Source: Myxococcota bacterium (GTDB lineage: Bacteria > Myxococcota_C > UBA6777). Taken from it: a stretch of 15,144 nt of DNA. This document shows positions 277 to 14,921 of this stretch, in pieces; position 1 is the stretch's first letter, and each line of letters opens with the position of its first letter. A program made the position numbers and the translations under genes. The notes under the pieces were generated by a model that was given only the letters and a program-made list of their open reading frames with translations, had not been told where the DNA came from and searched no databases. The stretch covers positions 1 through 15,144 of the forward strand of contig JAKLKB010000152.1 of the NCBI GenBank assembly GCA_023150835.1. Direction: 5' to 3'.

Positions 277-1074
277 TTACGAATCGGAGCGGATCGCGTG
301 TACGAATGCCCGAACATCGGATGCGATATCGTTGCTTTTCTCCAAGACTTGAAGTAGCGCGCTTCCGAGGATACCTCCGCGCAAAAGAGCGGTGCTATCC
401 TCGAAGGATCGGCGATCATGGATTCCAAAACCCACCATCGTTGGAGAAGACAGCTTCATCTCGTGGATGCGTTGAAAGTACTGTTTGCGCGAATCATCGA
501 CCGCGAGTTTGTTTCCCGTCACGGAAGCGACAGACACCACATACAAAAAGCCCGTCGCAAGGCCATCAAGCAGACGGATCCGCTCAGGAGGCGTCTGGGG
601 CGTGATCAAGAAAACGCTGCGTAGCCCGTAGTCTGCAAACATCGACTGATATCGCTCGCGGTATTCATCGATCGGCAGATCGGGCAAGATCAATCCATCG
701 ATCCCGACTTCTGCGCACGAAGCACAGAAACGCTCTGGGCCGTATTGCAGCACAGGGTTCAAGTAGCCCATCAACAGCACAGGGACACGGATCGCAGGGC
801 GAAGTCCTTGGAGCTGCTCGAAAAGCACAGACAAAGACATCCCATTTTGGAGGGCGCGTTCGTTGCTGCGCTGGATGATCGGGCCGTCTGCAAGCGGATC
901 AGAAAAAGGAAAACCGAGTTCGATCATCTCGACGCCTGCGTCTTGGAGGGCTTTACAGACGCGCAAGGTATCGTCAAACTGCGGATAGCCCGCCGTTGTA
1001 AACATTGACAAGACTTTTCCTTCGGCCTTCTCGAAAAGATCGCCGATGCGGTTACACAAAGCGTTGGATCTCAA
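277..1074 (-). CDS. trpA: Tryptophan synthase alpha subunit
   Basis: TrpA cleaves indole-3-glycerol phosphate to indole and glyceraldehyde-3-phosphate and passes indole through a tunnel to TrpB in the cytoplasmic alpha2beta2 complex. The chosen start gives 265 residues, normal for the family. The protein begins with an [10 protein letters not shown]-type helix, then MFTTAGYPQ, then [15 protein letters not shown], which carries the catalytic Glu52 and Asp63 (E. coli Glu49/Asp60). Further landmarks are [32 protein letters not shown] and VGFGIHD. Start: a TTG overlapping the trpB stop codon (TTGA), with a perfect AAGGAG at 1083-1088 eight bases upstream; the open frame runs on to 1143 but that part lies inside trpB. 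A second TTG at 1059 is possible. Last gene of the trp operon; no strong hairpin plus T-run follows it. Confidence 0.97.
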
Positions 1075-2264
1075 AAGCTCATCTCCTTGCGGTGATGCTC
1101 GCTGTAAGCGGCCATATCTTTGTCGCCCCGCCCCGAAAGGCACAAGACGACGGGATCGTCGGGCCCAGCATCGTGTTCGGCCAAATAAGCCAACGCATGG
1201 GCGGTTTCGAGGGCAGGGATGATCCCTTCGAGCCGAGCGAGTTCGTGGGCGGCAGCAAGGGCTTGTTCGTCGGTGACGCTGACATAACGAGCGCGGCCTG
1301 TGCGCGCAAGATGTGCGTGTTGTGGCCCCACTCCGGGATAATCGAGACCTGCCGAGATCGAATGAGCCTCGGTGATCTGACCGTCAGCGGTTTGCATGAC
1401 GAGCGTACGACTTCCATGTAAGACGCCTTCTCGACCGCGTGCGATCGTGGCGGCAGTTTCGCCGCTATCGAGTCCTTTTCCTGCCGCTTCAACACCGATC
1501 AGCGCAACTTCGGGAGTATCGAGAAATCGTGCAAATGCGCCGATGGCGTTGCTTCCGCCTCCCACGCAAGCGATGATGCTGTGCGGCAGCGTGTAGGGCG
1601 TTTGTGCGGGGAGTTGCCAACGGATCTCTTCGCTGATCACAGATTGAAAGCGCATCACCATATCGGGATAAGGATGCGGGCCGACCGCCGAGCCGATGAT
1701 GTAGTGCGTATCTTCGGGGTTTGCGATCCAATCGCGCATCGCTTCGTTGGCAGCGTCTTTAAGCACGCGACTTCCCGAATTCACCGCACGAACCGTAGCA
1801 CCAAGCATCTGCATCCGCTGCACATTCGGGGCTTGGCGGTGCATATCGATCTCGCCCATATACACGACACATTCGATGCCCATCAAAGCGCAAACTGTGG
1901 CGGTCGCCACGCCATGCTGACCTGCACCTGTCTCTGCGATGATACGGCGTTTTCCGAGACGTTGCGCCAAAAGGATCTGACCAACAGCGTTATTGATCTT
2001 GTGTGCGCCTGTGTGGTTGAGATCTTCTCGCTTCAAAAACAGCGGATAGCCGAGCTTTTTTGACAGGCGACGCGCTGGATAAAGCGGTGTAGGTCGCCCA
2101 ACATAATCACGTAAAAGCTGATGAAACTCCGCTTGGAACGCAGGTTCCTCGATCACCTCACGATAACAGGCTTGCAACGCTGTGATATTGGGCACCAACA
2201 TCTCAGGGATATATGCGCCGCCAAACGAACCAAAAAATCCCCGTGTATCGACGTTATAGTTCAC
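1071..2264 (-). CDS. trpB: Tryptophan synthase beta subunit
   Basis: PLP-dependent TrpB condenses indole with L-serine to give tryptophan. With the chosen start it has 397 residues, the usual TrpB1 length. The N-terminus [20 protein letters not shown] is typical. The PLP lysine is in HTGAHKINN (Lys89, E. coli Lys87), followed by [27 protein letters not shown], the PLP-phosphate loop GGGSNAIG and the C-terminal LSGRGDKDM. Start: GTG at 2262-2264, preceded by a GAGGTG-type ribosome site; the frame is open to a GTG at 2276, which would add four residues. It overlaps the 3' end of trpF by 11 bases, and its own stop overlaps the TTG of trpA, so translation of F, B and A is probably coupled. All catalytic elements are intact. 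Confidence 0.98.
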
Positions 2265-2910
2265 CACGCACCTCACTGATCACTTCCGCGACCCACGCAA
2301 CCGATTTCTGCGCGACCGCTGTTTCCAAGCGACTATTGAAATCGACCCCCACCAGACGCGGATCTCGCGCACGCAACGCAAACACCTCGGATAATGCTTG
2401 ACGATCCAGTCCTCCCGCCAACAGATACGGCACTTCCAACCGATACTCCGTCAACAACGACCAATCAAACCGCCTCCCTGCGCCTCCCAAACCCTGCGTT
2501 TGCGTATCAAACAAAAACCGCTCGATCCGACCAACATACGCAGACAATGCCTGCCACTGCGTATGCTCCGAACTCCCCACCGCTTTCCAGATCCTTGCAG
2601 CCTCTCCCCACAGATCTCTCAATCGGCCACAAAATGCCGCATCTTCCACACCGTGCAACTGCACAACATCCAATCTGTATCGCCTGACTTGTTCCACGAT
2701 CCAACTCGCTTCTGCATCGACAAAAACCCCGACTCTTCGGGTCTTTTCACCAAGGCTCTCCAAGCACCGCGGATCAAAGGATGTCCCCACAAAACGCTTG
2801 GAGCCTGCATAAAACAAAAAGCCCAAATAATCAGGCCCACACGCCGCAACCTCCGCGATATTTCGCGGATCACGCATACCACAGATCTTCACTTCCAAGG
2901 GGCGCTGCAT
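2254..2910 (-). CDS. trpF: Phosphoribosylanthranilate isomerase
   Basis: TrpF catalyses the Amadori rearrangement of N-(5-phosphoribosyl)anthranilate to CdRP in a (beta/alpha)8 barrel. The 218-residue protein opens with VKICGMRDP, with catalytic Cys10, and has the general-acid Asp135 in FLFDTQT. Other family landmarks are [37 protein letters not shown] and LLAGGL near the phosphate site. The final VDFNSRLE differs slightly from the usual VDVNSGVE. The ATG has a good GGAGAAGG site just upstream. TrpF is not fused to TrpC, unlike in enterobacteria. It is separated from trpC by a 119-base gap filled by a palindromic repeat, the only sizeable break in the operon, but overlaps trpB downstream. Confidence 0.96.
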
Positions 2911-2944
2911 ACCTTCTCCCGACTATCCGCTTTTTAGAGGACCG

Positions 2945-3030
2945 ATACGAAATCCGCAGGGGGGTGATCGAACGGTGTAGGGGCAGCCCCCCCTGCCCAA
3001 CTATAGGGCGTCTACAGCGGGATTTCGTAT
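2945..3030 (+). repeat. Dispersed palindromic repeat, copy C, between trpC and trpF
   Basis: A nearly self-contained element of about 86 bases. Its ends are inverted repeats: ATACGAAATCCGC at 2945-2957 and GCGGGATTTCGTAT at 3017-3030. The right end runs into the TAA stop codon of trpC. Inside is TGATCG, then the core GTAGGGGCAGCCCC at 2977-2990, CCTGCCCAA, and TATAGGGCGTCTAC ending at 3015. GGGGCAG pairs with CTGCCC. In the operon mRNA this would form a stem-loop with a long outer stem between trpC and trpF. There is no T-run, so it does not look like a normal intrinsic terminator. Confidence 0.85.
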
Positions 3031-3851
3031 TACGCAGGCACAGCCGAGGCGTGTTGTTTGGCGATCGCTTGGTATTCTCGGATCAATTGAGCGCAACCTT
3101 CTTCGGGTTGGCTGCGCTTCATAAACATCTCGCCGATCAAAAAGCCGTCAAATCCGGCCTGTTTGAGTTGCCAAAGATCCTCAGCGCGATGCAGTCCGCT
3201 TTCTGAGATCTTGACGCTTTCCGAAGGGATCCGCTCCACCAACGACAGAGAACGTTCCAAAGAGACCGAAAAGTCCCGAAGATCGCGGTTATTCACACCG
3301 ATCACATCGATCGAGGGACTCCAGCAAGCGTCAAGTTCTTCCGCGCTATGGATCTCCAACGCCACCTCAAGACCAAGGCGATGTGCAAAGGCCGCAAGCT
3401 CCCGCAACACCGAGGGTTCCAACGCCGCAGCGATCAACAAGATCGCATCTGCCCCCAAGGACCGCGATTCAACGATCTGATAGGGGTCCACGATAAAGTC
3501 TTTGCGTAAGATCGGACAAAAGTTGAATCGCCTTGCGACTTGGAGATCTTCGTTGCTTCCACCGAAGAATTTTTGATCCGTCAGCACCGAAAGCGCCGAA
3601 GCGCCCGCTTGCATATAACCGATCGACAACCGCTCCACCGAGATATGCGGATTGAGCTCGCCTTTAGAAGGAGAACGCCGTTTGATCTCTGCGATCACAC
3701 CGACCTTATCGGTGCGGCGGAGATAGCGTTTGAGCGAGACGACAGTCGTTGTCATGTAGATGCTTTTTTCCAACAAAGGCTGCGGATACAAGGCTTTGCG
3801 CTCCGCGACTTCGTGTTTTTTGTGGGCAAGAATGGTCTCCAAGATCGTCAT
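3030..3851 (-). CDS. trpC: Indole-3-glycerol phosphate synthase
   Basis: TrpC closes the indole ring by decarboxylative cyclisation of CdRP to indole-3-glycerol phosphate. The 273-residue protein has the IGPS-specific N-terminal helix (ILETILAHKKHEVAERK) and then the (beta/alpha)8 barrel. Catalytic Lys57 is in VIAEIKRRSPSKG, Lys117 in LRKDFIVD, and Glu166 lies in ALEIHSAEEL. GVNNRDL (Asn188) and SESG (Ser217-Gly219) are the substrate-binding loops, and FLIGE is the phosphate site. Its ATG shares one base with the trpD stop codon (TGATG), which points to translational coupling. It is monofunctional, with no fused TrpF domain. Confidence 0.97.
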   Translation of the reverse strand: MTILETILAHKKHEVAERKALYPQPLLEKSIYMTTTVVSLKRYLRRTDKVGVIAEIKRRSPSKGELNPHISVERLSIGYMQAGASALSVLTDQKFFGGSNEDLQVARRFNFCPILRKDFIVDPYQIVESRSLGADAILLIAAALEPSVLRELAAFAHRLGLEVALEIHSAEELDACWSPSIDVIGVNNRDLRDFSVSLERSLSLVERIPSESVKISESGLHRAEDLWQLKQAGFDGFLIGEMFMKRSQPEEGCAQLIREYQAIAKQHASAVPA

Positions 3852-4876
3852 CAGCCGACGGCCTCCTGTGGGTGGGGAGCTTGCTGTGTGAGATGCAAAA
3901 ATCGCTCAAAAGTCTGATATGCCTTGCCCGAACGCAAGGCTTCTTGTGCGTGGGCGATGCCTTCTTGTAGAGAAGCAACGGCTCCAGCGCAATGTAGCGC
4001 AAGAGCGGCATTTGCGGCCACCACATCTTCTTGGGCGGGCGTGCCTTCTGCGCGCAAGATCGCCAAAAACAGCCGCGCAGAAGACGCGATATCCTTTCCA
4101 CCCCACAGCGCAGCGGCGGGATATCGAGGCAGTCCGATATCTTCGGGTTCAAGGAATTGTTCGCGTCGGGATCCGTACACCTGAAACGCGCCTGTCAAAG
4201 AGATCTCATCGTATCCATCGAGTGAATGAACGACACGATAAGCGATGCCTTCTTGTTCAAGCAGAGAATGAACGAGCCGAGCGATCTCCAGATCGTACAC
4301 GCCCATGACTTGGCATCGAGGGCGCGCTGGATTGACCAACGGACCCAACATATTGAAAAAGGTTCGAACGCCAAACTCTCGACGTATCGGGGCCATCGCT
4401 TTCATCGCAGGGTGAAACAACGGCGCGTGGAGATAACAGATCCCCGCTTCTTCTACACAACGCCGCAAGACCGACTCTTGCGAGTGAAACACGACGCCCA
4501 ACGCTTCCAACACATTCGACGAACCGCACACCGAAGAAACACCGACGTTTCCGTGTTTTGCAACGCGCACCCCACAAGCCGCGACCACAAAGGCCGAGAG
4601 CGTCGAGATATTAAACGTCTCTTTGCCATCGCCACCTGTTCCGCACACGTCGATCAGATCGAATCCTTCGAGTGAAACGGCTTGACTTAACGAGAGCATG
4701 GTGTCTCGAAAGCCTGCCAACTCCGCCAAGGTCATCTGACGCATACAAAAAACGGTCAAAAAGCCAGCGACTTGGCTAGACGGATATCGCTGCTGCACGA
4801 TGGCAAGCAACAGCGCCGCCGCTTCTTCTCGTGACAGCGGATGCCCCGCAAACAGTCGTGTCAGGGTGGCTTTCAT
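3851..4876 (-). CDS. trpD: Anthranilate phosphoribosyltransferase
   Basis: TrpD transfers phosphoribose from PRPP to anthranilate. At 341 residues it is a normal monofunctional TrpD with no fused glutaminase. The alpha-helical N-terminal domain (LSREEAAALL) is followed by the PRPP/Mg site GTGGDGKETFNIS (about 79-91), KHGNVGVSS (about 107-115) and GSSNVLEALG, where the common A-D is S-N. RREFGVRTFFNMLGPLVNP and SLDGYDEISLTG are also typical. Start: ATG at 4874-4876 giving MKATLTRLFAG, which matches family N-termini. The frame is open to a TTG at 4921, but the extra 15 residues look unlike TrpD. The ATG overlaps the stop of an upstream 24-codon mini-ORF (ATGA), so trpD is probably coupled to that ORF rather than directly to trpG. 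Confidence 0.97.
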   Translation of the reverse strand: MKATLTRLFAGHPLSREEAAALLLAIVQQRYPSSQVAGFLTVFCMRQMTLAELAGFRDTMLSLSQAVSLEGFDLIDVCGTGGDGKETFNISTLSAFVVAACGVRVAKHGNVGVSSVCGSSNVLEALGVVFHSQESVLRRCVEEAGICYLHAPLFHPAMKAMAPIRREFGVRTFFNMLGPLVNPARPRCQVMGVYDLEIARLVHSLLEQEGIAYRVVHSLDGYDEISLTGAFQVYGSRREQFLEPEDIGLPRYPAAALWGGKDIASSARLFLAILRAEGTPAQEDVVAANAALALHCAGAVASLQEGIAHAQEALRSGKAYQTFERFLHLTQQAPHPQEAVG

Positions 4877-4947
4877 CGCTTCCCGCTCCCTGTGGCTCGC
4901 AAGAAAAGTTCGTACAACCAAAACAGCCGTGTGGCGGTGGCTTTCAT
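4873..4947 (-). CDS. 24-codon mini-ORF bridging trpG and trpD
   Basis: The ATG at 4945-4947 overlaps the TGA of trpG (ATGA), and its own TGA overlaps the ATG of trpD (ATGA), so it links the two genes with four-base overlaps at both ends. The product would have 24 residues, MKATATRLFW at the N-terminus and ATGSGKR at the C-terminus. The first eight residues nearly repeat the true TrpD N-terminus (MKATLTRL), and about 28 bases after each ATG are near-identical: ATGAAAGCCACC, ACACG and CTGTTT are shared. This looks like a partial duplication of the trpD start, offset by 71 bases. It may serve translational coupling or be a duplication relic; no function is claimed for the peptide. It is clearly present in the sequence, but translation is unproven. 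Confidence 0.5.
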   Translation of the reverse strand: MKATATRLFWLYELFLRATGSGKR

Positions 4948-5519
4948 TGCGCTCCCCCCAACCAGTTGGCCAAGATCTTTGTTCCGCAGGGGGTCATCAT
5001 GGATTCGGGATGAAACTGGATGCCTTTGATATCGAGCTGTCGGTGCGCGATGCCCATCACGCATCCTTCGGCATCTTCCGCGATCACCTCAAAGCAGTCA
5101 GGCAGGGTCGCTCGACGAACGGCCCACGAATGATAGCGCCCTGCTTGAAAAGGCGATGGGATCCCCGCAAACAACGGCTCCTCCGAGCGCAAGATATGCA
5201 CAGGCGTTTCGCGGCCATGATACATCTGCCGCATATTGTAGATCTCGCCCCCAAACACTTCTGCGATCCCTTGGTGGCCAAGACAAACTCCCAAGAGGCT
5301 GTGCTGCACACCACAAGCTGCGATCAGCGCAGGCATGATCCCCGCTTCGGAAGGGATCCCGGGTCCGGGAGAGAGCAAGATCTTCTCGTAAGCAAGGGCT
5401 TCTTCGAGACGGATCTTGTCGTTGCGGATCACATCAAGCTCGCGAACACCGAGTTCTTCAAGAACATGAACAAGGTTGTAGGTGAAAGAGTCGTAGTTAT
5501 CGAGAACAAGCAACCGCAT
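4944..5519 (-). CDS. trpG: Anthranilate synthase component II, glutamine amidotransferase
   Basis: TrpG is a class I glutamine amidotransferase that hydrolyses glutamine and delivers ammonia to TrpE for anthranilate synthesis. The 191-residue length is standard. The triad is Cys79 in GVCLGHQ, with His170 and Glu172 in FHPES; the oxyanion region is SPGPG at about 50-54. The N-terminus LLVLDNYDSFTYNL is characteristic of TrpG/PabA. Because it lies between trpE and trpD, tryptophan synthesis is its main role, but a shared PabA function in folate synthesis cannot be excluded. The ATG follows the trpE stop by three bases and has GAGGTGA inside the trpE end. Its TGA overlaps the mini-ORF that leads into trpD. 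Confidence 0.96.
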   Translation of the reverse strand: MRLLVLDNYDSFTYNLVHVLEELGVRELDVIRNDKIRLEEALAYEKILLSPGPGIPSEAGIMPALIAACGVQHSLLGVCLGHQGIAEVFGGEIYNMRQMYHGRETPVHILRSEEPLFAGIPSPFQAGRYHSWAVRRATLPDCFEVIAEDAEGCVMGIAHRQLDIKGIQFHPESMMTPCGTKILANWLGGAQ

Positions 5520-5522
5520 CGC

Positions 5523-6977
5523 TCACCTCTGCGCCCCTTGACGCTCGGCCATCTGCAATGCAGCGCGCAAAGCACCGAGCTTGTTGTTGACTTCTTGCAT
5601 CTCTTCGGCGGGCCGAGAGTCTGCGACGACGCCCCCTCCTGCTTGGCAATGCAACACCCCGTCCTTGCTCAAAAAAGAGCGGATCACGATCGCGTGATTG
5701 CAACTGCCATCAAAGCCCAAGCAGCCGATCGCTCCACCGTACGCCCGCCGTCGTCCGCGCTCGTACTGATCCAACAACTCCAACGCCCGATACTTAGGCG
5801 CTCCGCTCAGCGTTCCCATCGGAAAGGTATCTGCCAACAAACCGATCGCTTCGGCTCCTTGCTTGAGCGTTCCAGTCACCTTGGAGGTCAGGTGGATCAC
5901 ATGCGAATACCATTGGACCTGCTTGTACACTTCGACATGAACTTGGCGGCAATGCTTGCTTAGATCGTTGCGTGCGAGATCGACCAACATCACATGCTCG
6001 GCATTTTCTTTGGGGTCTTCGCGCAGACGTGCAACGGCTGCTTGATCGGCCTCGATATCTCCCGTCCGACGGTACGTTCCAGCGATCGGAAACAGAGACG
6101 CTTTTCCATCGCGCACCACAAGCTGCGCTTCGGGAGACGAACCGAGCAACCGAAATCCACCCAGATCGAAGTAAAACAAATAAGGCGAGGGATTGATCGA
6201 GCGCAGCGCTCGATACACATGAAAGTCATCCCCCTGATAAGACCGAGAGAACCGACGAGAGGGCACGATCTGGAACACATCGCCCCGTTGGATGTGCGTC
6301 TGACAACGCTCGACGAGCGCCATGTATTCGGCTTCTGTAAAGTTCGATGATTCGTCCCCCACCAACGCAAACGGATACATGGGGAAATCTTTGTGTGCCA
6401 CAAGGTACAACAGCCGCTCTAGTTCGCCTTCTTCGATCGGTGCTTCGGACCAGCCGTTTCCTTGGATGTACATCACATCGCGATAATGATCGATGGCGAT
6501 GACGTACCGAAACAAGCGGTACACCAGATCAGGGATCGCTCGGCTTTCGTCTGTATCGGCTTGTACGCAAAGATCGTCGAAATAGCGCACGCAATCAAAA
6601 CCAACATAACCGAAGATCCCGTTATTGAGCGGCGGCATCTGCGCTCGATGTGCAACACCGCTCAGATCGCGCTCCCACGAAAACTGCCCCAAAAAAGCGC
6701 GTAAGCCTTCGACCACATCGCTGCGTTGGGTGATGGCTCGCGTCTCCCGCGTCCCGTCGAGATCGTGGGTGGTAATCGTCTCGTCTTGCACACGAAAGCC
6801 CGCAACAGGCGCACAACACAAGTACGTCATGCTCTTTCCATGCGGGCCATCTTCGGTGCTTTCAAGCAAAAAGGTTCGGGGATACACATCACGCAGCCGT
6901 AGATACGCGCTCACAGGCGTTATCGTATCTGCAAGCGCCGACAAGACGCAGGTTTGAATGACAAAAGCTTTCGTCAC
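5523..6977 (-). CDS. trpE: Anthranilate synthase component I
   Basis: TrpE converts chorismate and TrpG-derived ammonia to anthranilate, the committed and feedback-controlled step. The 484-residue protein has the N-terminal regulatory domain with PVSAYLRLRD and the tryptophan-binding LLES at 37-40, so feedback inhibition is expected. The chorismate-binding domain shows FQIVPSRRF, INPSPYLFYFD, GSSPEAQLV, PIAGTYRRTGD, LVDLARNDL and MGTLSGAPKYRALEL. Start: GTG at 6975-6977 with AAAGGTGG about eight bases upstream. First gene of the trp operon. A dispersed palindromic repeat lies 31 bases upstream of the start codon. I find no leader peptide with tandem Trp codons, so classical ribosome-mediated attenuation is not supported. 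Confidence 0.97.
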   Translation of the reverse strand: MTKAFVIQTCVLSALADTITPVSAYLRLRDVYPRTFLLESTEDGPHGKSMTYLCCAPVAGFRVQDETITTHDLDGTRETRAITQRSDVVEGLRAFLGQFSWERDLSGVAHRAQMPPLNNGIFGYVGFDCVRYFDDLCVQADTDESRAIPDLVYRLFRYVIAIDHYRDVMYIQGNGWSEAPIEEGELERLLYLVAHKDFPMYPFALVGDESSNFTEAEYMALVERCQTHIQRGDVFQIVPSRRFSRSYQGDDFHVYRALRSINPSPYLFYFDLGGFRLLGSSPEAQLVVRDGKASLFPIAGTYRRTGDIEADQAAVARLREDPKENAEHVMLVDLARNDLSKHCRQVHVEVYKQVQWYSHVIHLTSKVTGTLKQGAEAIGLLADTFPMGTLSGAPKYRALELLDQYERGRRRAYGGAIGCLGFDGSCNHAIVIRSFLSKDGVLHCQAGGGVVADSRPAEEMQEVNNKLGALRAALQMAERQGAQR

Positions 6978-7222: not shown

Positions 7223-8734
7223 CTATTTTAGATAACAGACCAAAGCGTGCTCGACGACGAGGGCGAGGTGACCGTGTGTTTCGGGGTTGGTGAGGACTTT
7301 TTCTTCTGCACGGTGGGTGGGGTAGCCCACGACGAGGCGCACAGCAGGGATCGGCGAGGCATCCAGCAACGGCACAGACGCTTTGCGTACACCGACGGTC
7401 GAACCTGCGAGGGTTTCTTTGGCCGAAGCGTTGGGCAAAAACCCTGCATTTTTCATAGCCGTTCCAAGGCAGGTCGCGAACTTCTCGGAGGCTTCGGCTT
7501 GTTTGTTTTGTTCGGAATAGATCACTTTGTAGCCCGCGATCGAATCGTTGTAAGTGATCTCTTTGTCGGCGACTTTTTCTTTGACGACACCTGCGGGGAA
7601 TTCTTTGATGCCATCGGCAAGATCGATCTGCAAGAGCAGCTTCGAGCGTTTTTTGGCCCGATCGACACGATCCTCGACAGAAGCCGCATCGTCCTTGCTT
7701 CGGGTCATGCCCACACGTTTTTTGAAGGCGAGGGTCTTCTCAAGAGCCTCTTTGATCGCTTGGGCGATCGTCAAGTTGAGTTGGCTTGCGGGGGTTTGTG
7801 TGGTGACTCCGAGGACACCTTTGGCTTCGCCGCCGTGATCGGGATCAAGAGCGATGCGAAAGCGCTTGTCTTTTGGTTTCCATTTGCGTTTGGGGTAAAG
7901 GATGTTGAGGGCTTGGGGGCGCGAAACCGCGACAGCACGGGGCTTGGGAGGCTCTTTGGGTTTGATGTCGAGTTTTTTGGGAAACCAGCCCGGGATGGTG
8001 AGTTCTTTGGGCTCGATCGCCGCTTCTTTTTGCTTGTCGGGCGTGAGCTTTCCCCATTCTTCTTGGGACTTCAAGCCTTTGGACCACGTTTGGTAGCCAT
8101 TCATCGAGATCGAGATGCGGATGATCTTGGCGGCGCGGCGCAAAGAAAAGCGGCGCGGAGTTTTGCCTGAGAGACGATTGATCTTGTTTTCACCGATACC
8201 GGGAAGCCCTGTCATATCCGCGATGATCTCAAACTCTGCGCCGTTGGGTTCGGTTTTGATCTCGACAGAAACCGTGTCGTCAGCGGGTCCACCTGAAAAA
8301 AGGTAGTACCCCGCCGCCCCAAGCAACAACACCGCAGCGATCGCGATCCAGAGATTGGAACGCTTGGACGCCGAGGCCACGGCGATCTCTTCTTGTCCCA
8401 ACCCCTCGAATCCATCGATATAAAGGGTGTTTGCGCGTAGCTCGATCGGGCGCACCACGATCAATGCGCCTTCTTGGACCTTTTGTGCAGAAAAGGCTTG
8501 TTGGCCCATGATCGGCGCTTCTTCGCCCTTGTTTCGGCAAGAATAGCGCCACTTGAGATCCACTTCTTTTCCTGTATTCGGATCGACGGCGCGAGTCGCG
8601 ATCTCTTTTTCTGTTCCTTGGAGTTGCTGGACCAGCCGACGAAAGACAGCCTCGGGTGTTTCATTCATTCCCATCTGGATGCGGTGGTGCATATTGCGCT
8701 TTCCCGTCCAGATCTCCCACAAGAATTCTTGCAT
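7223..8734 (-). CDS. Membrane protein with PEGA-like domain and degenerate Amidase_3-like domain
   Basis: 503 residues. Start: ATG at 8732-8734 with GGAGG five bases upstream; an in-frame GTG at 8800 lacks a good site. Residues 1-125 form a soluble, presumably cytoplasmic domain of unknown family; its size and the ALIVVRPIEL ending loosely recall ubiquitin-like (YukD-type) folds, which is speculative. A membrane span covers about 127-147 (LWIAIAAVLLLGAAGYYLF). Residues 155-215 look like a PEGA domain (IKTEPNGAEFEI to MNGYQTW) with an insertion. A charged Pro/Lys linker leads to 291-503, which follows N-acetylmuramoyl-L-alanine amidase (Amidase_3): ALDPDHGG, RVGMTRSKDD, EDRVDRAKK, GYKVIYSEQNKQAEA, RLVVGYPTHRAEE. 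Of the usual zinc and catalytic residues only His300 is evident; the Glu of the EKxLNL region, the His of SIHANA (here QIDLAD) and the Glu of LVExGF (here LVVGY) are missing. It is therefore probably a binding or sensing domain, third in an operon with two kinases. Confidence 0.8.
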   Translation of the reverse strand: MQEFLWEIWTGKRNMHHRIQMGMNETPEAVFRRLVQQLQGTEKEIATRAVDPNTGKEVDLKWRYSCRNKGEEAPIMGQQAFSAQKVQEGALIVVRPIELRANTLYIDGFEGLGQEEIAVASASKRSNLWIAIAAVLLLGAAGYYLFSGGPADDTVSVEIKTEPNGAEFEIIADMTGLPGIGENKINRLSGKTPRRFSLRRAAKIIRISISMNGYQTWSKGLKSQEEWGKLTPDKQKEAAIEPKELTIPGWFPKKLDIKPKEPPKPRAVAVSRPQALNILYPKRKWKPKDKRFRIALDPDHGGEAKGVLGVTTQTPASQLNLTIAQAIKEALEKTLAFKKRVGMTRSKDDAASVEDRVDRAKKRSKLLLQIDLADGIKEFPAGVVKEKVADKEITYNDSIAGYKVIYSEQNKQAEASEKFATCLGTAMKNAGFLPNASAKETLAGSTVGVRKASVPLLDASPIPAVRLVVGYPTHRAEEKVLTNPETHGHLALVVEHALVCYLK

Positions 8735-8847
8735 GTTTACCTCCATGCGCGAAAAAACATCAACGTTCGACATCGTTATCGGGCGTTTGTTCTGTATCAC
8801 AGCCCTCGATCAAGCGCAAAGTCTCGCCTTGGTTTGCGTCGATTGCC

Positions 8848-10206
8848 TCATGGATGTTCAAAGCACGACAAGCGCAACTCTGCTTGCCCCAAGGTGATCC
8901 AGTCCCCGTCTTGGAGCAGACTGCTGGTGGTCACAGAGCCGTTGACGCGAACAACCGCTCCTTCGATGCCTGTGATCGTGATCCATCCGTCTGGGGCGCA
9001 ATACACTTCGGCATGCAAAGGCAGCACACCCGAGAGATGCAGCGCCAACGAGGCTTCTTTTTGCGATCCGATCCGCAAGCGTTCTCCGCGCAACAGCCAC
9101 GCGACTTCGCGTGATTGTTCGCCTTCTTGCAGCAACAAAACCCCCAACGGCTGCTCTTGAGCCGCGATGACTTCGGCATCTGTCGCCACTTGGCTTTCGG
9201 GTGCGTAGGGGCTGGCAACAGAGCTTGCAGCCAGCGCCAACCACTTCGATATATCGGGCAATTCGGTCATGGTGGCATTAAAATCATCGGGGGTTAAGAT
9301 CTGCCTGCTTTCCCACAGACGCTCGCGCACATCCCCCAACGAAGCGGGCCGATCGAAGGTATCTTTGGCCATCATCTGCTGCAACAAGTCTTCGAGGGTC
9401 GTTCCGCTGAGTTCTCGGCGGAACTTGCGCAACAACGGGGGAGCGGCTGTCAGGTGCGCTCCCATGATCATGTAAGGGTTATCGCCTGCAAAGGGCAACG
9501 TCCCCGTGACCAACTGAAAGATAATGATCCCCAAAGCGTAGATATCGGTCGCTGGCCCCACCGAAGAAGCAGGGCCACGTATCTGCTCAGGGGCCATATA
9601 CAACGGCGTCCCCACCGAGATGCCGTGCAGCGTCAGCTTTCCCCCGACTTCTTCTTCCAAGAGCTTTCCGATGCCAAAGTCAAAGACTTTGATCACTTCC
9701 TTGCCATCGGCTTGTTGCTCCAAAAAGATATTTGCGGGTTTGAGATCGCGGTGGACGATCCCGCACAAGTGCGCGGATTCAAGGCCCGCACAAACTTGTA
9801 AGGCGATATCCAGCGATTGCTTGAGCGGTAGCCTTCCGCCGCGATCACGCATATACGATTCCAGTTCTTCGCCTTGCAAAAGCTCCGTCGCAAGGTAAAA
9901 ATGCACACGAGGATCAAAACCAAAATCAAAAAACTCGACGAGATTGGGATGATGCAAGCGGTTGGAGATCACGGCTTCACGGATGAAACGCCCCACATCT
10001 TGTCGTCGTCCACGCAGCTCGTGGCGCATGACCTTAAACGCCGCAGAACGGCCATCGTGGAGCCTTTCGGCACGATAGATCAGCCCCATTCCTCCTTCGG
10101 CCAGCAAAGACAGCACCCGAAAGCCCGCGATCTCCTCTCCCTCTAGGAGCCGTGTGCTTTCTTCGCTGTCGATGTTCCCCGTCTTCGCCTCGTCGTTCAC
10201 GATCAT
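8848..10206 (-). CDS. Serine/threonine protein kinase with C-terminal FHA-like domain
   Basis: 452 residues with the ATG at 10204-10206, which has GGGGAG just upstream. A TTG at 10242 overlapping the stop of the upstream kinase (TTGA) is an alternative start but has no ribosome site. The kinase domain spans about 29-300: glycine loop LAEGGMG, Lys58 in AAFKVM, IVHRDLKPANI with Asp154, VFDFG with Asp176, GTPLYMAPE, and DIYALGIIIFQLVTG. All catalytic residues are present, so an active Hanks-type kinase is expected. After a linker, about 366-448 reads as an FHA-like fold (LRGERLRIGS, PLHAEVY, VRVNG, LLQDGDWITLG). The usual FHA Arg after the Gly is Ser, and the Ser of the SxxH motif is not seen, so phosphothreonine binding is doubtful. 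No membrane segment was found. It lies 32 bases after kinase 1 and 113 bases before the pseudo-amidase gene. Confidence 0.93.
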   Translation of the reverse strand: MIVNDEAKTGNIDSEESTRLLEGEEIAGFRVLSLLAEGGMGLIYRAERLHDGRSAAFKVMRHELRGRRQDVGRFIREAVISNRLHHPNLVEFFDFGFDPRVHFYLATELLQGEELESYMRDRGGRLPLKQSLDIALQVCAGLESAHLCGIVHRDLKPANIFLEQQADGKEVIKVFDFGIGKLLEEEVGGKLTLHGISVGTPLYMAPEQIRGPASSVGPATDIYALGIIIFQLVTGTLPFAGDNPYMIMGAHLTAAPPLLRKFRRELSGTTLEDLLQQMMAKDTFDRPASLGDVRERLWESRQILTPDDFNATMTELPDISKWLALAASSVASPYAPESQVATDAEVIAAQEQPLGVLLLQEGEQSREVAWLLRGERLRIGSQKEASLALHLSGVLPLHAEVYCAPDGWITITGIEGAVVRVNGSVTTSSLLQDGDWITLGQAELRLSCFEHP

Positions 10207-10238
10207 CGAACTCCCCTCACCGTCGGTGAACTCTTGGA

Positions 10239-11897
10239 TCAAGCCGGTCTGATGGGCTTTTTAATTGACGGCGCACCTTGCTCTTGAACGGGCTGTGTCG
10301 GCAACATCCCCGATCCCTTTTGTTGCGTGCGTTGGTACCATTGCCACCCCAACAACCCCATCCCCCCCAACAAGATCCCGAGCAACAAAGCCCACACCAA
10401 GGTCTTCCAAGAAGACGCGACGGTCGGAGCGGTGGGATGGCCTTGGGCGGTGGGATGGCCTTGGGCGGTGGGATGGCCTTGGGTGGTGGGAGACGGGCTG
10501 CGCGCAGGCAAAGGCGGTAGGGGCGTGATCTTTGACTGCGCGAGCAAACTCACATGGCCACCCGAGCCTTTTTGCGACCATGCAGCGCGGACTTGCTCGG
10601 ATTCATTGCGACCGATCAGCATGGTATCGAGGTTGGGATCACCGCCTGCGGCTTCTTGTGGGATATCGGCTGTTTCAACCACAGTATGCGAGACTTCGTC
10701 GTCTGCGTCGTCTGCGTGGGCGACAGAAAAAGACGGAGCGGGAGCCTTGGCGCGGGACTGGAAACTGTGGCTCTGTTCGACGGGTGGGGAGGTGGGCGGG
10801 TAAGACATACTGCTCGGAGTATCGACCGCTTCCGCCCCCGCCCCCGCAAAATAGCCGTAAGACGCACTTGCGGCACCGTACATCGGCGCAGGCGTCGACT
10901 GGGACGCATAGCCCGGCCCCACAGCGTCCCATGCTCCCGAAGGCATTTTTTCGTACTGGGCTGCTGTCTCAAACAAACGATAAAAGTCGGCAGCATGGGC
11001 TGGACGGCCTTCTTTTTCTTTCGCAAGCGAACTGAGGATCAACGCTTCCATCTGCGCCGAAAAAGGGCGACCCATGCTCGAAAGCGTGGGGGGTTCTTTT
11101 TTGACGTGCATATACAACAAGCGCGCCAACTGTTTGGACTCAAAAGGCAACCGACCCGTCAACAGCCAAAACACCATCACACCGAGCGAATACAGATCAG
11201 AGCGCGCATCGACTTCGCTATGACGGCCTCGCGCTTGTTCGGGACTCATAAAGCGAGGCGATCCGACGATCTGCCCTGTCACGGTCATCTGCTCGCCGCC
11301 TTCGGCTTGCAGGACTTTGGCGATCCCAAAATCAAGGATCTTGACGATATCATCTTGCTCGAAACGCTTGATCAGCAGGATATTCGAGGGTTTGAGATCG
11401 CGGTGAACGATCATCAACGAATGGGCGCGCTGCAAGGCAGAACAGATCTGGCGGAGTATCGGCAACAAGCGAGATATCGGCATCCCGTTGGGATAGGCGC
11501 GCATCGCATCGGAAAGCGATTCTCCATCAAGGAATTCCATGATGTAAAAAAAGCCGAGGGCGTCATCGTAGCCAAAGTCGTAGATCTGAACGACATTCTC
11601 ATGATTGATCTGACTACAGACTTGGGCTTCTCGGCGAAATCGCCCCACCAACTGCTCGTCTGTAATAAACTTTTTGCGCAGGATCTTGACCGCTGCAAAG
11701 TTGCCTTCGAGTTCTGTGTGGCTGGCGAGATAAACAACTCCAAACCCCCCCTTACCGATGGGCTTGATCAGACGATAGCGCCCCACTTGGTGGCCCAAAT
11801 AAGCGTCGTCAGAGGTCGTAAGTTGCGCGTGATCCACCGAACAATAGTATGTTTCTTCGGGATAACGGCGACCGCAAGTAGGACAGATCATGGCCAT
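10239..11897 (-). CDS. Transmembrane serine/threonine protein kinase with N-terminal zinc ribbon
   Basis: 552 residues. The N-terminus has a short zinc-ribbon-like motif, CPTCGRRYPEETYYCSVDH, with Cys5, Cys8, Cys19 and perhaps His23 as ligands, common on myxobacterial-type kinases. The kinase domain spans about 41-310: GKGGFG (48-53), Lys71 in AAVKIL, IVHRDLKPSNI with Asp167, ILDFG with Asp189, SPRFMSPE and DLYSLGVMVFWLLTG. All catalytic residues are intact. A Pro/Ser/Ala-rich low-complexity region (about 315-495) follows, including three GHPTAQ-type hexapeptides. One membrane span lies at about 499-519 (TLVWALLLGILLGGMGLLGW), with a short tail after it, probably periplasmic. The start is ATG at 11895-11897, or the ATG two codons later; no clear ribosome site precedes it. 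First of the three-gene cluster. Confidence 0.94.
   Translation of the reverse strand: MAMICPTCGRRYPEETYYCSVDHAQLTTSDDAYLGHQVGRYRLIKPIGKGGFGVVYLASHTELEGNFAAVKILRKKFITDEQLVGRFRREAQVCSQINHENVVQIYDFGYDDALGFFYIMEFLDGESLSDAMRAYPNGMPISRLLPILRQICSALQRAHSLMIVHRDLKPSNILLIKRFEQDDIVKILDFGIAKVLQAEGGEQMTVTGQIVGSPRFMSPEQARGRHSEVDARSDLYSLGVMVFWLLTGRLPFESKQLARLLYMHVKKEPPTLSSMGRPFSAQMEALILSSLAKEKEGRPAHAADFYRLFETAAQYEKMPSGAWDAVGPGYASQSTPAPMYGAASASYGYFAGAGAEAVDTPSSMSYPPTSPPVEQSHSFQSRAKAPAPSFSVAHADDADDEVSHTVVETADIPQEAAGGDPNLDTMLIGRNESEQVRAAWSQKGSGGHVSLLAQSKITPLPPLPARSPSPTTQGHPTAQGHPTAQGHPTAPTVASSWKTLVWALLLGILLGGMGLLGWQWYQRTQQKGSGMLPTQPVQEQGAPSIKKPIRPA
10431..10484. repeat. Three tandem 18-bp repeats inside the kinase 1 gene
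   Basis: Unit GGTGGGATGGCCTTGGGC at 10431-10448, 10449-10466 and 10467-10484; the third ends in T. A partial fourth unit (GGTGGGA) follows. The period is six codons, so copy-number change keeps the kinase frame. On the coding strand it specifies the repeated hexapeptide PTAQGH in the low-complexity linker just before the membrane span. Confidence 0.95.
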
Positions 11898-12161: not shown

Positions 12162-12917
12162 TCAACGACAACACCCCGCAACACAGCTTGTGTAGCCTCG
12201 ATTTTGGCAATCACTTTCAAGCACACACGCCAACGTCTGACAGGTGGGGCCTTGGCTTTGGACGCGGCACACGCCCGAAGTGCAGGCCCCGTTGCAAGAA
12301 AGACAATCCGCATTGGACTGACAGACTTTGCTTTGACAAGCATCTCCTGCGATCTTCTGACAGCGGCCCATCTCGCAAAGCAAGCTACATGCGCTGCAAT
12401 CACTCGCTTTTGTACACGGCATCCCGATCTGGCAAGAGCTTGTTGCAGAACAATTGCCTGCATTGGGGTTGCAACAGGCTTGTTCGCGGCAGAGATACCC
12501 CGCCAAACAATCGTTGTCTTGCGTGCATACCTTGCGCAGCTCACACACGCGCACACTCCCGCTACCCGTGCAGATCCAGCCTCGGCCACAGTCGCTATCG
12601 CTTTGACAGGTCCGGATATCTCGTTTGTAGCAGACGCAATTCCCGCAGCCTTCGTAAGGGTAGTTGCAATCTGCGTCGTCTTTGCAGGCGCAGGTTTTTT
12701 CTGGGAGAGCTTCTTGGGTCGCCTTGCATCGACCTTCACAGGTCCCCAGATTGGCGTAGCATTCGGGCTTGTCGAATACACAACTCATCCCCGCACCACA
12801 CTCATAACCATGCGAGCAAACACCGGGTTCTTGGGAAGGCAACACACAATGCACCACACTCCACCACACCAACACCAAACCGCCCCACACGCCCATCATC
12901 CGCAACATACTTGTCAT
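12162..12917 (-). CDS. Cysteine-rich exported protein
   Basis: 251 residues from the ATG at 12915-12917, which has AAGGA seven bases upstream; a TTG at 12941 is less likely. The N-terminus is a signal sequence, with a hydrophobic stretch MMGVWGGLVLVWWSVV. It ends at a Cys (VVHC, residue 24) that could be a lipoprotein cysteine, but His before it is atypical, so signal peptidase I cleavage is equally possible. By my count 41 of 251 residues are Cys. They recur in modules of the form CxSDSDCGRGWIC, CTQDNDCLAGYLC and CQSNADCLSC, resembling the Dickkopf-N-like Cys-rich repeats common in Myxococcota secreted proteins. The protein ends with CCR. It is probably a disulfide-rich surface or secreted protein; ligand unknown. 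The next gene downstream is kinase 1, 264 bases away on the same strand, but co-transcription is not shown. Confidence 0.8.
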   Translation of the reverse strand: MTSMLRMMGVWGGLVLVWWSVVHCVLPSQEPGVCSHGYECGAGMSCVFDKPECYANLGTCEGRCKATQEALPEKTCACKDDADCNYPYEGCGNCVCYKRDIRTCQSDSDCGRGWICTGSGSVRVCELRKVCTQDNDCLAGYLCREQACCNPNAGNCSATSSCQIGMPCTKASDCSACSLLCEMGRCQKIAGDACQSKVCQSNADCLSCNGACTSGVCRVQSQGPTCQTLACVLESDCQNRGYTSCVAGCCR

Positions 12918-13161
12918 CACCCTATCCTTTTCTCTTCCCAAAGCACCCTATGCTCGGCTATTTGCACTCTGTTCTCGGAGAAAAACTAGCCCGTCACGTC
13001 CAGCAAAGCTATGCTTCTCCTGTGCAAAGCACAAGGAACCCACAAAAAACAAGCGTTGTCTCGCTTTTTGTGCGCTGTCTTTCACAGGCCCAAACGAACG
13101 GCCAAACAGCCAAAGCCCAAACGACCTGCGCTGTTGATCACCCATCCCAAAGGAGCTTCCC
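12918..13161. other. Divergent intergenic region
   Basis: 244 bases between the minus-strand Cys-rich gene and the plus-strand LD-carboxypeptidase gene, so it should contain two outward promoters; I could not identify convincing -35/-10 pairs. It contains an imperfect inverted repeat (CACAAAAA..GCG at about 13041-13055 against CGCTTTTTGTG at about 13062-13072). AAGGAG at 13150-13155 is the ribosome site for the carboxypeptidase. Confidence 0.5.
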
Positions 13162-14328
13162 TTGTCAGCATCGACCCTTGCCCCTGCGTGCCGCGCAGGG
13201 GATCGCGTAGCCATCGTCGCCCCAGCGGGGCCCTTTTCGCACGAACACCTGTTGCGCGGCTGTGCTTTGTTGCGTGCGTGGTCGCTTGAGCCTGTGTTTG
13301 ATCCTGCGATCCTCGCACGATGGGGCTACCTTGCGGGACAAGACGATCTGCGTGCGCGTCTATTGACCGAAGCATGGGAAGATCCTTCGGTGCGTGCCAT
13401 CCTCTGTGCGCGAGGTGGCTACGGCTCAATGCGTCTGCTCGATCGCCTTCCGACGCAGAGATTTGCCCAGCACCCCAAGCGCTTCTTTGGTTTTAGCGAC
13501 ATCACGTTGCTGTTAAACGCGCTGGTTCGGGACGCGGGGCTGATCAGCTTTCACAGCCCGATGATCGCAAGTCCCTTGTTTTTTGAGGGTTCGCCTGCAA
13601 GCCAAGACGCGCTCAAACAGGCCCTTTTTGGCGAGACCCTTTCGGATATCTATGCGCCGCTTTTGGGAACGTGGGTACAAGGAAGCCGTCAGACGGGGCG
13701 TTTGTTGGGAGGCAATCTTTCCTTGATCGCTTCAGCCATCGGCACACCTTGGGAGATCACCGATCAGCCGATCATCTTGTTGCTTGAAGAAGTTAGCGAA
13801 CCACCCTACCGCATCGATCGGATGCTCCAACAGCTCCGATACAGCGGCTTTTTGGAGCGTGTCGTCGGGATCGCCCTCGGTGATATGGGCGCTTATCAAG
13901 ACCAGTACCAACGCTACACCACCCAAGAGATGTGGCTCGAACGCTTGGCGTTGCCCCCAACATGCGCGTTGCTTTGTGACCTTCCGATCGGCCATATCGA
14001 CGATCACCGCAGCGTTCCCTTGGGAGCGTGGATGACCCTTGACCCACAAGAGGCCAGTCTTCGCATCGCAAACGCCCAAGAGATCGCAAACGCCCAAGAG
14101 ATCGCGAACGCCCAAGAGATCGCGAACGCCCAAGAGATCGCGAACGCCCAAGAGATCGCGAACGCCCAAGAGATCGCGAACGCCCGAGACAGCAACAACA
14201 CCCGAGACAGCAACGACATCCGCAAGGGCCAAGCCGCTCACTTTTCGGATCCCAGCGAAGCGAGCCACGCGAGTCCATCGGATCCTTCGGAACCATCGCC
14301 CCATTCAACACAAAGGAGGCGCAGATGA
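13162..14328 (+). CDS. LD-carboxypeptidase, S66 family, with repeat tail
   Basis: S66 serine peptidases of the LdcA/MccF type cleave the L,D bond that releases the terminal D-Ala from murein tetrapeptides during peptidoglycan recycling. Start: TTG at 13162 with AAGGAG six bases upstream. The family core occupies residues 1-300. It opens with GDRVAIVAPAGP, then ARGGYGSMRLL, then FFGFSDIT with nucleophile Ser112, LLLEEVSEPPYRIDRML with the catalytic Glu (209 or 210), and LPIGHIDDHRSVPLG with His278. The triad is thus complete. Residues 302-340 are six and a half copies of IANAQE encoded by an 18-bp repeat, followed by a Ser/Pro/Asp-rich tail ending in QRRRR; this roughly 88-residue extension is beyond the normal domain. 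No signal peptide is seen, so a cytoplasmic location is likely, as for LdcA. An MccF-like role on other peptides cannot be excluded. Its stop overlaps the next gene. Confidence 0.92.
   Translation: MSASTLAPACRAGDRVAIVAPAGPFSHEHLLRGCALLRAWSLEPVFDPAILARWGYLAGQDDLRARLLTEAWEDPSVRAILCARGGYGSMRLLDRLPTQRFAQHPKRFFGFSDITLLLNALVRDAGLISFHSPMIASPLFFEGSPASQDALKQALFGETLSDIYAPLLGTWVQGSRQTGRLLGGNLSLIASAIGTPWEITDQPIILLLEEVSEPPYRIDRMLQQLRYSGFLERVVGIALGDMGAYQDQYQRYTTQEMWLERLALPPTCALLCDLPIGHIDDHRSVPLGAWMTLDPQEASLRIANAQEIANAQEIANAQEIANAQEIANAQEIANAQEIANARDSNNTRDSNDIRKGQAAHFSDPSEASHASPSDPSEPSPHSTQRRRR
14065..14190 (+). repeat. 18-bp tandem repeat array inside the LD-carboxypeptidase gene
   Basis: Six near-perfect units of ATCGCGAACGCCCAAGAG from 14065 to 14172; the first two have A in place of G at position 6. 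A seventh, diverged at its end, lies at 14173-14190, and two more degenerate 18-base units (AGCAACAACACCCGAGAC type) run to 14226. The period is six codons and encodes IANAQE, so unit gain or loss is frame-neutral. Confidence 0.97.
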
Positions 14329-14921
14329 TCGCCGAGCGCTTTTATGCGATGCGCCACGGCGCAAGCGAAGCCAACCTTGCAGGGAAAGTGCAAGGCATCG
14401 AAGATATCCCGCTGGCGGTACGCGGAGAGCGCGAAGCGTTGGCCTCTGCCAAAGCCCTCGAAGCAGCGGGGATTACACACATCTACGCATCCCCGCTTCA
14501 GCGGGCCTTTCGGACTGCCGAGATCGTCGCGCAGCATCTGGGCCTTTCGGTCCGCTCGCTCGACGGATTGCGCGCTCGAAACCTCGGGACATGGGCCTTG
14601 AAACCCAGCAGCGAGATCAAAGCCGCGTGGGCGGATCACCAACATCCTTTTCGCAGCGATCCGCACTTTGCTCCGCCGGGCGGCGAGAGCCTTTACGACA
14701 GCGAGCAACGGCTTTGGCAAGCCGTCGATCCGATCCTTGCTGAACCTGCGAGAATCCCGCTGTTTGTGACACATCTCGTCGCCACAGGCGCGCTTGTCCA
14801 ACGCTTCTTTGGGCAACGTCCCGCTTTTCATAACGCCGAGGTCTGGGTGCTCTTTCCTCAACAACGTTCTGCGCGCTTGTTCTTCCGCCCCGAGGGAGAT
14901 CTGCTCATGGGCAACGAATAA
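14325..14921 (+). CDS. Histidine phosphatase superfamily protein
   Basis: 198 residues, phosphoglycerate-mutase-like branch 1 fold. The RHG motif is at Arg10-His11-Gly12 (AMRHGASEAN) with the phospho-accepting His11. YASPLQRAFRTAEIV carries the second phosphate-binding Arg60, and VTHLVATGAL carries His150. The segment that normally reads LxExxxGxWEG is LRARNLGTWAL (82-92), so the usual acidic proton donor seems replaced by Ala84; activity may rely on another acid or be altered. Substrate cannot be told: cobalamin phosphatase (CobC), sugar phosphatase and SixA-like roles are all possible. The ATG overlaps the carboxypeptidase stop (ATGA) and has a strong AAAGGAGG five bases upstream, so the two genes form an operon. 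Confidence 0.9.
   Translation: MIAERFYAMRHGASEANLAGKVQGIEDIPLAVRGEREALASAKALEAAGITHIYASPLQRAFRTAEIVAQHLGLSVRSLDGLRARNLGTWALKPSSEIKAAWADHQHPFRSDPHFAPPGGESLYDSEQRLWQAVDPILAEPARIPLFVTHLVATGALVQRFFGQRPAFHNAEVWVLFPQQRSARLFFRPEGDLLMGNE

Follow-up and report, generated by a model that had tools for sequence, protein, structure and literature searches.

What is known of how kinases control the cell wall comes mainly from the PASTA kinases and from CwlM, in Gram-positive bacteria and mycobacteria, and little is understood of wall sensing in kinase-rich diderm bacteria. The PASTA kinases (PknB, Stk1, PrkC) are transmembrane Hanks kinases with a presumed wall-sensing ectodomain. Two regulators of amidases, EnvC and ActH, are wall-hydrolase-derived or partner proteins. 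EnvC is of the LytM type and ActH is a membrane activator of LytH; to our knowledge, both lack an Amidase_3 fold and are not encoded beside kinases. The cwlM gene is located apart from pknB. The mycobacterial CwlM protein (Rv3915), which belongs with PknB and FhaA, is of the Amidase_3 type, misses zinc ligands, is connected to Ser/Thr kinases and an FHA protein, and has a regulatory instead of an enzymatic role (PMC4946905, PMC6180346). It provides a precedent for an amidase-fold pseudoenzyme in kinase signalling (PMC4946905, PMC6180346), and EnvC is mentioned as a pseudoenzyme in a statement of PMC4946905.

The window analysed here is one entire contig of 15,144 bases from a genome of 7.56 Mb. 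It contains three co-directional genes, all on the minus strand and located where the initial annotation had placed them, for a transmembrane kinase (K1), which is a Hanks kinase like the PASTA kinases, for a soluble kinase (K2), and for a membrane protein with an amidase fold (AMI). AMI resembles CwlM in its Amidase_3 type, in the missing zinc ligands and in the company of Ser/Thr kinases and an FHA protein, and by analogy it may also have a regulatory role. Our reading is that K1, K2 and AMI are one envelope-signalling unit with AMI as a single-pass receptor or co-receptor, to which we give an even chance. The features of the window are as follows.

277-6977, minus strand: trpE-trpG-trpD-trpC-trpF-trpB-trpA
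7223..8734, minus strand: AMI, single-pass membrane protein of 503 aa (conserved ATG and GGAG(G), transmembrane segment 128-146)
7226..7864, minus strand: AMI residues 291-503, Amidase_3-fold pseudoenzyme (Pfam, VIA-align, amidase alignment)
8069..8284, minus strand: AMI residues 151-222, PEGA-like beta domain (hhalign)
8405..8734, minus strand: AMI residues 1-110, predicted ubiquitin-like beta-grasp domain (AlphaFold2, pLDDT 85)
8848..10242 (or from ATG 10206), minus strand: K2, soluble Ser/Thr kinase of 464 aa (Pfam, FHA alignment, orthologues)
10239..11897, minus strand: K1, Ser/Thr kinase of 552 aa (Pkinase, motifs, hydropathy transmembrane segment, one-to-one orthologues)
12162..12941, minus strand: Cys-rich secreted protein or lipoprotein (position and strand conserved in all the other genomes)

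Conservation of the gene cluster

The lineage sample comprised five genomes of one family, and the collection had no other family of that phylum. Besides the window genome these were the MAGs KLAP109, NP119, S139 and M3003, which are labelled Myxococcota, Myxococcales or Deltaproteobacteria. AMI was present in all five genomes. The genes for the Cys-rich protein, K1, K2 and AMI were contiguous in this order in the window genome, KLAP109, NP119 and M3003. In S139, the cluster is divided between two contig ends, with the Cys-rich gene and K1 on one and K2 and AMI on the other. The check for conserved co-occurrence that the initial annotation had proposed showed the three genes as neighbours in 5/5 genomes, with one cluster split across contig ends.

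The Cys-rich gene lies upstream of K1 with a gap of 264 nt and showed only weak Dickkopf_N/DUF7107-like repeats (weak Pfam matches). The downstream flanks of the cluster varied between the genomes and harbored the trp operon, a gene for a VWA protein or other genes. A functional tie to the trp operon was rejected, as trp was found there only within the genus, and the clusters of NP119 and M3003 have no trp genes next to them. The genes for an S66 LD-carboxypeptidase and a histidine phosphatase, which are on the plus strand within the window, adjoined the cluster also in NP119 and not in M3003.

All genes had a dN/dS of ~0.09 in comparison with the same-genus genome, indicating purifying selection. 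The set of two kinases and a pseudo-amidase, as initially annotated, was present with good Pfam matches and this same dN/dS. Since the genes are under purifying selection and their order is kept in all five genomes, the gene set is not a product of chance. A promoter and terminator scan of the window predicted a number of promoters close to the shuffled background and did not resolve an operon boundary.

Each genome had at least about 140 kinase matches, and the orthology of K1 and K2 is important for this reason. In each genome, the search with K1 led to a single match with 430-461 bits (next match ≤260), and the search with K2 to a single match with 463-479 bits (next match 213). All these best matches were inside the cluster or, for S139, on the split contigs. 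Judged by these scores, K1 and K2 are unambiguous one-to-one orthologues across the lineage.

The N-domain of AMI was the best-conserved part of the protein, with 100% identity within the genus (dN 0) and 51-66% between the window and the other genera. The ectodomain diverges faster: for the same comparison with other genera, identity was about 40% for the amidase domain and 24-34% for the PEGA-like part. Receptors or adaptors commonly combine a strongly constrained cytoplasmic docking domain and a less constrained outer part, and the pattern tells nothing about the direction of the signal.

We also searched for AMI outside the lineage. Among 290 mixed relatives, the N-domain was not found beyond the five genomes, and short matches with E values of 0.05-0.08 were taken as chance. 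As a proxy for Myxococcota we used the Myxococcus-type phylum (195 genomes), which was picked because one of its genomes matched GltG strongly. The N-domain had no match in these 195 genomes, whereas the same query gave matches in the home lineage, and with a whole-AMI profile the sole match was weak and confined to the amidase part. A contig scan with AMI N-domain patterns only led to no genomes beyond the same four others. In the literature, no description of a pseudo-amidase or inactive Amidase_3 protein with kinases was found under the terms tried, and a 2005 survey of bacterial kinase architectures left amidase and PEGA unmentioned.

Domains and motifs of K1, K2 and AMI

K1 matched Pkinase with an E value of 9.8e-46 (Pfam), with the kinase domain at about residues 41-300. 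The protein starts with a zinc-ribbon-like sequence (CPTCGRRY...C..D), and the kinase domain is followed by a low-complexity linker, a single transmembrane segment predicted by hydropathy at residues 499-517, and a short outer C-terminal tail. The initial description of a transmembrane zinc-ribbon kinase was therefore correct. Of the motifs of Hanks-type Ser/Thr kinases, the P-loop, the VAIK Lys, HRDxKxxN, DFG and an APE-type motif were all present in K1, K2 and their orthologues, with the exception that Ala replaces the first P-loop Gly in K2. The best-scoring model for K1 was PknB_PASTA with 272.6 bits versus a cut-off of 450, which reflected the kinase part only, and Pfam gave no PASTA match in K1.

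K2 matched Pkinase with an E value of 3e-45 (Pfam; kinase domain about 43-300). Its start is ambiguous and is either TTG 10242, which overlaps the K1 stop, or ATG 10206. No convincing transmembrane segment was found; the sole hydrophobic stretch is within the kinase fold and is missing in the M3003 orthologue. The C-terminal FHA/YscD-like domain (about 383-459) matched PF16697 with an E value of 1.9e-6, which is under the curated cut-off, and PF00498 with 0.044, and in profile comparisons it matched FHA domains of the PDB, the KIF13B FHA domain among them. The weak Pfam matches and the PDB profiles together supported the soluble kinase with FHA-like tail of the initial annotation. The motifs for phosphothreonine binding in FHA domains are GR, SxxH and NG (PMC1262709). 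In the alignment of the K2 tails, all five orthologues had GS or GA instead of GR and lacked the Ser of SxxH, while NG and the His were retained. Since two of the three motifs are missing in 5/5 orthologues, a classical phospho-relay via this tail is unlikely. Binding by the KIF13B FHA domain has been reported to be phosphorylation-independent, according to a reference cited in PMC9203973. Based on the motif loss and the KIF13B-type profile match, the K2 tail more probably makes a contact that does not depend on phosphorylation.

AMI was initially annotated to start at 8800. The ATG at 8734 is preceded directly by GGAG(G) in 5/5 orthologues and is the shared N-terminus of the alignment, and for these reasons it is very probably the true start, 8800 being 22 codons too early. 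From this start, the order is a ubiquitin-like domain, the single transmembrane segment, the PEGA-like part and the Amidase_3 fold. In every orthologue examined, the transmembrane segment precedes the amidase fold. The N-terminus is predicted to be cytoplasmic and the PEGA-like and amidase parts to be periplasmic. The cysteines C422 and C500 are invariant and also present in an NP119 paralogue; they may be linked by a disulphide, which would agree with a location outside the cytoplasm.

AlphaFold2 modelling of AMI from five sequences resulted in a pLDDT of 75 for the whole protein and 85 for the N-domain alone. In VIA-align, the N-domain model had Z scores of 9-10 to ubiquitin, FERM and further ubiquitin-like domains (FERMT2 FERM 9.8, ubiquitin 9.5), and the best Foldseek match was EccD of ESX-5 (E 1e-3). 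The model therefore has a ubiquitin-like beta-grasp fold. The likeness of this fold to ubiquitin or EccD implies no function. Of the earlier proposal of a cytoplasmic N-domain serving as kinase partner or substrate, the domain itself stood, as a predicted cytoplasmic, modelled ubiquitin-like and best-conserved part of AMI; contact with either kinase would be its suggested role. For the PEGA-like outer domain, residues 151-222 aligned to PEGA domains of the same genomes with an hhalign probability of 88%, against 2% and 0.1% for the other AMI domains, but Pfam gave no match to PEGA (PF08308).

The outer C-terminal domain matched Amidase_3 (PF01520) with an E value of 5.2e-16 and 59.6 bits (curated cut-off 27), and all five members matched. 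The predicted structure has an amidase fold, as the initial annotation had expected, with a Z score of 22.4 to 4rn7 (rmsd 2.3 over 180 residues, 23% identity). Z scores to Amidase_3 structures were about 20-22 and those of unrelated structures near 10.

The AMI orthologues, that of the window included, were compared in an alignment with the canonical Amidase_3 protein of each of the five genomes. One such protein was found per genome, with all four zinc or catalytic residues kept: H in D[AP]GHGG, E in ..EK.VTLDI, H in S[VI]H.N and E in LVEASF. In AMI, H300 is kept, the zinc-binding E is replaced by A316, the zinc-binding H by D371 and the catalytic E by V468 (numbering from the M at 8734). The same pattern, with the first H retained and with A, D and one of V, L or A at the other three positions, was found in all five orthologues, so that the term pseudo-amidase is justified by the loss of 3/4 residues. 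The comparison with the canonical paralogues ruled out that AMI is an active N-acetylmuramoyl-L-alanine amidase. None of the five orthologues differs at H300, A316 or D371, despite an identity of only about 40% for the domain, and this fits a preserved non-catalytic pocket rather than decay. A second dead-amidase copy in NP119 (L024) is part of a DUF3857/transglutaminase lipoprotein without a kinase and has lost the remaining His as well (DAMRGG). As this copy has no kinase, the dead-amidase domain is not kinase-specific; its place on such a lipoprotein suggests a general periplasmic binding module.

Possible roles of AMI in signalling

Starting from what the computation established (gene order, folds, residue loss, intact kinase motifs, orthology and N-domain constraint), we infer a ligand, a signal direction, a physical contact and an order of K1 before K2. 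The PEGA-like and dead Amidase_3 domains of AMI would bind peptidoglycan or muropeptides in the periplasm without cutting them, so that the amidase fold would be the peptidoglycan sensor. Ligand binding would shift the position or clustering of AMI. Its ubiquitin-like domain would then dock to the membrane kinase K1 and activate it, or present a substrate to K1, and K1 would hand the signal on to the soluble K2. A receptor function is supported by the constant cluster order in five genomes with differing downstream flanks, and by an amidase fold that was retained in AMI but without its E, H and E, with a complete amidase elsewhere in each genome. Ubiquitin-like domains are common protein-docking modules, and the modelled N-domain fits a docking role. 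On the other side, a dead wall hydrolase can, by analogy to EnvC and CwlM, be an output, the dead-amidase domain is also found without a kinase (NP119), and assembly by phosphorylation is doubtful because the FHA tail of K2 lacks phosphothreonine motifs.

The main rival to AMI as receptor is that AMI is an effector, which we consider rather unlikely. K1 and/or K2 would phosphorylate its cytoplasmic domain, other inputs, e.g., the Cys-rich protein or K1's own tail, would drive the kinases, and from the periplasm the dead amidase would control either peptidoglycan synthesis or a true amidase. The canonical Amidase_3 enzyme in each genome is a natural partner candidate, and the AMI N-domain has invariant Thr/Ser residues, e.g., T26 within an invariant ETP. 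CwlM, an amidase homologue without key zinc ligands, controls MurA upon phosphorylation by PknB (PMC4946905), phosphorylated CwlM binds FhaA (PMC6180346), and the dead hydrolase EnvC activates AmiA/AmiB, as cited in PMC4946905. However, the amidase fold of CwlM is cytoplasmic; that of AMI is behind the transmembrane segment and predicted to be periplasmic, and phosphorylation would therefore have to act across the membrane.

It is improbable that the ectodomain merely tethers AMI and the kinases to a wall site, with regulatory input from elsewhere. PEGA-like and amidase folds could act as wall anchors, and the faster divergence of the ectodomain would be in agreement, but plain tethering does not require invariant positions at the former active site. 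Chance vicinity of an amidase-like gene to two of about 140 or more kinase genes, very improbable in spite of the very high kinase density per genome, was rejected on account of conserved order and one-to-one orthology, as the same orthologous pair, order and strand recur in five genomes whose proteins share 40-50% identity and whose downstream genes differ. Finally, a re-built metal site with another hydrolytic activity, formed by the invariant H300 and D371 and another residue, is extremely unlikely, as Ala replaces the second zinc ligand and hydrophobic residues the catalytic glutamate, and the NP119 paralogue also lacks the remaining His.

The anatomy and conservation of K1/K2/AMI are supported, with peptidoglycan as a putative ligand and a kinase as a putative partner. 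If true, a conserved dead-amidase receptor would be a testable answer to how diderm bacteria sense their wall, and the ubiquitin-like docking domain is a handle for finding the kinase it serves among about 140 or more.

Comparison with known systems

EccD of ESX type VII secretion has, like AMI, an N-terminal cytoplasmic ubiquitin-like domain before a membrane segment. Unlike AMI, it has many transmembrane helices and no comparable ectodomain, and no secretion genes adjoin AMI. Compared with the PASTA kinases, K1 lacks PASTA domains, and its outer tail is short. A separate protein of another fold is the candidate sensor here, while in PASTA kinases the sensor is fused to the kinase; K1/K2/AMI suggests a cell-wall signalling unit of another build.

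CwlM is soluble and cytoplasmic and has no transmembrane segment, ubiquitin-like or PEGA-like domain. In contrast, AMI has a transmembrane segment (128-146), its amidase fold is predicted to be periplasmic, and its gene lies beside two kinase genes in a diderm-type lineage. Because of this different location of the amidase fold, the topology of AMI is not that of CwlM, but its mode of action may be similar. Under the terms tried, the arrangement K1-K2-AMI was described nowhere in the literature found, and amidase-derived regulators linked to kinases are already known from CwlM. We tentatively suggest, with somewhat less than even confidence, that a dead wall amidase with one transmembrane segment and a ubiquitin-like dock that switches a dedicated two-kinase cascade is a new kind of receptor, present in one phylum-level lineage only. 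If this is true, AMI would be a second amidase turned regulator, with a topology opposite to that of CwlM.

Genes flanking the kinases

On either side of the kinase cluster, the window carries the following:

277-6977, full trp biosynthesis cluster, adjoining the kinase cluster on its downstream side
12162-12941, Cys-rich secreted protein with weak Dickkopf_N/DUF7107-like repeats
13162-14328, S66 LD-carboxypeptidase
14325-14921, histidine phosphatase gene

The Cys-rich protein gene lies upstream of K1, the transmembrane kinase with a zinc-ribbon N-terminus, and was kept in all five genomes of the lineage. The residue before the candidate lipobox Cys of its product is unusual. Conservation of the trp cluster beside the kinases was restricted to the genus. 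The end of the carboxypeptidase gene and the start of the histidine phosphatase gene overlap by 4 bases.

Two tandem repeats were seen. The AQGHPT short repeat in the K1 linker (10420-10520) showed slight differences when the genus's two genomes were compared, and the IANAQE-type repeat in the C-terminal tail of the carboxypeptidase was not the same in the same-genus genome.

Kinase, PEGA and Amidase_3 domains in the lineage

The collection contains just five genomes of this phylum-level lineage (G000-G004). Each of them has some 140 protein-kinase domains or more, together with 42-63 matches to PEGA. Outside the kinase cluster, MAG NP119 (G003:C3) encodes the dead Amidase_3 domain a second time (L024:5158-7827), in fusion with a DUF3857/transglutaminase-like lipoprotein. 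This copy carries the motif DAMRGG and has lost four of four active-site residues.
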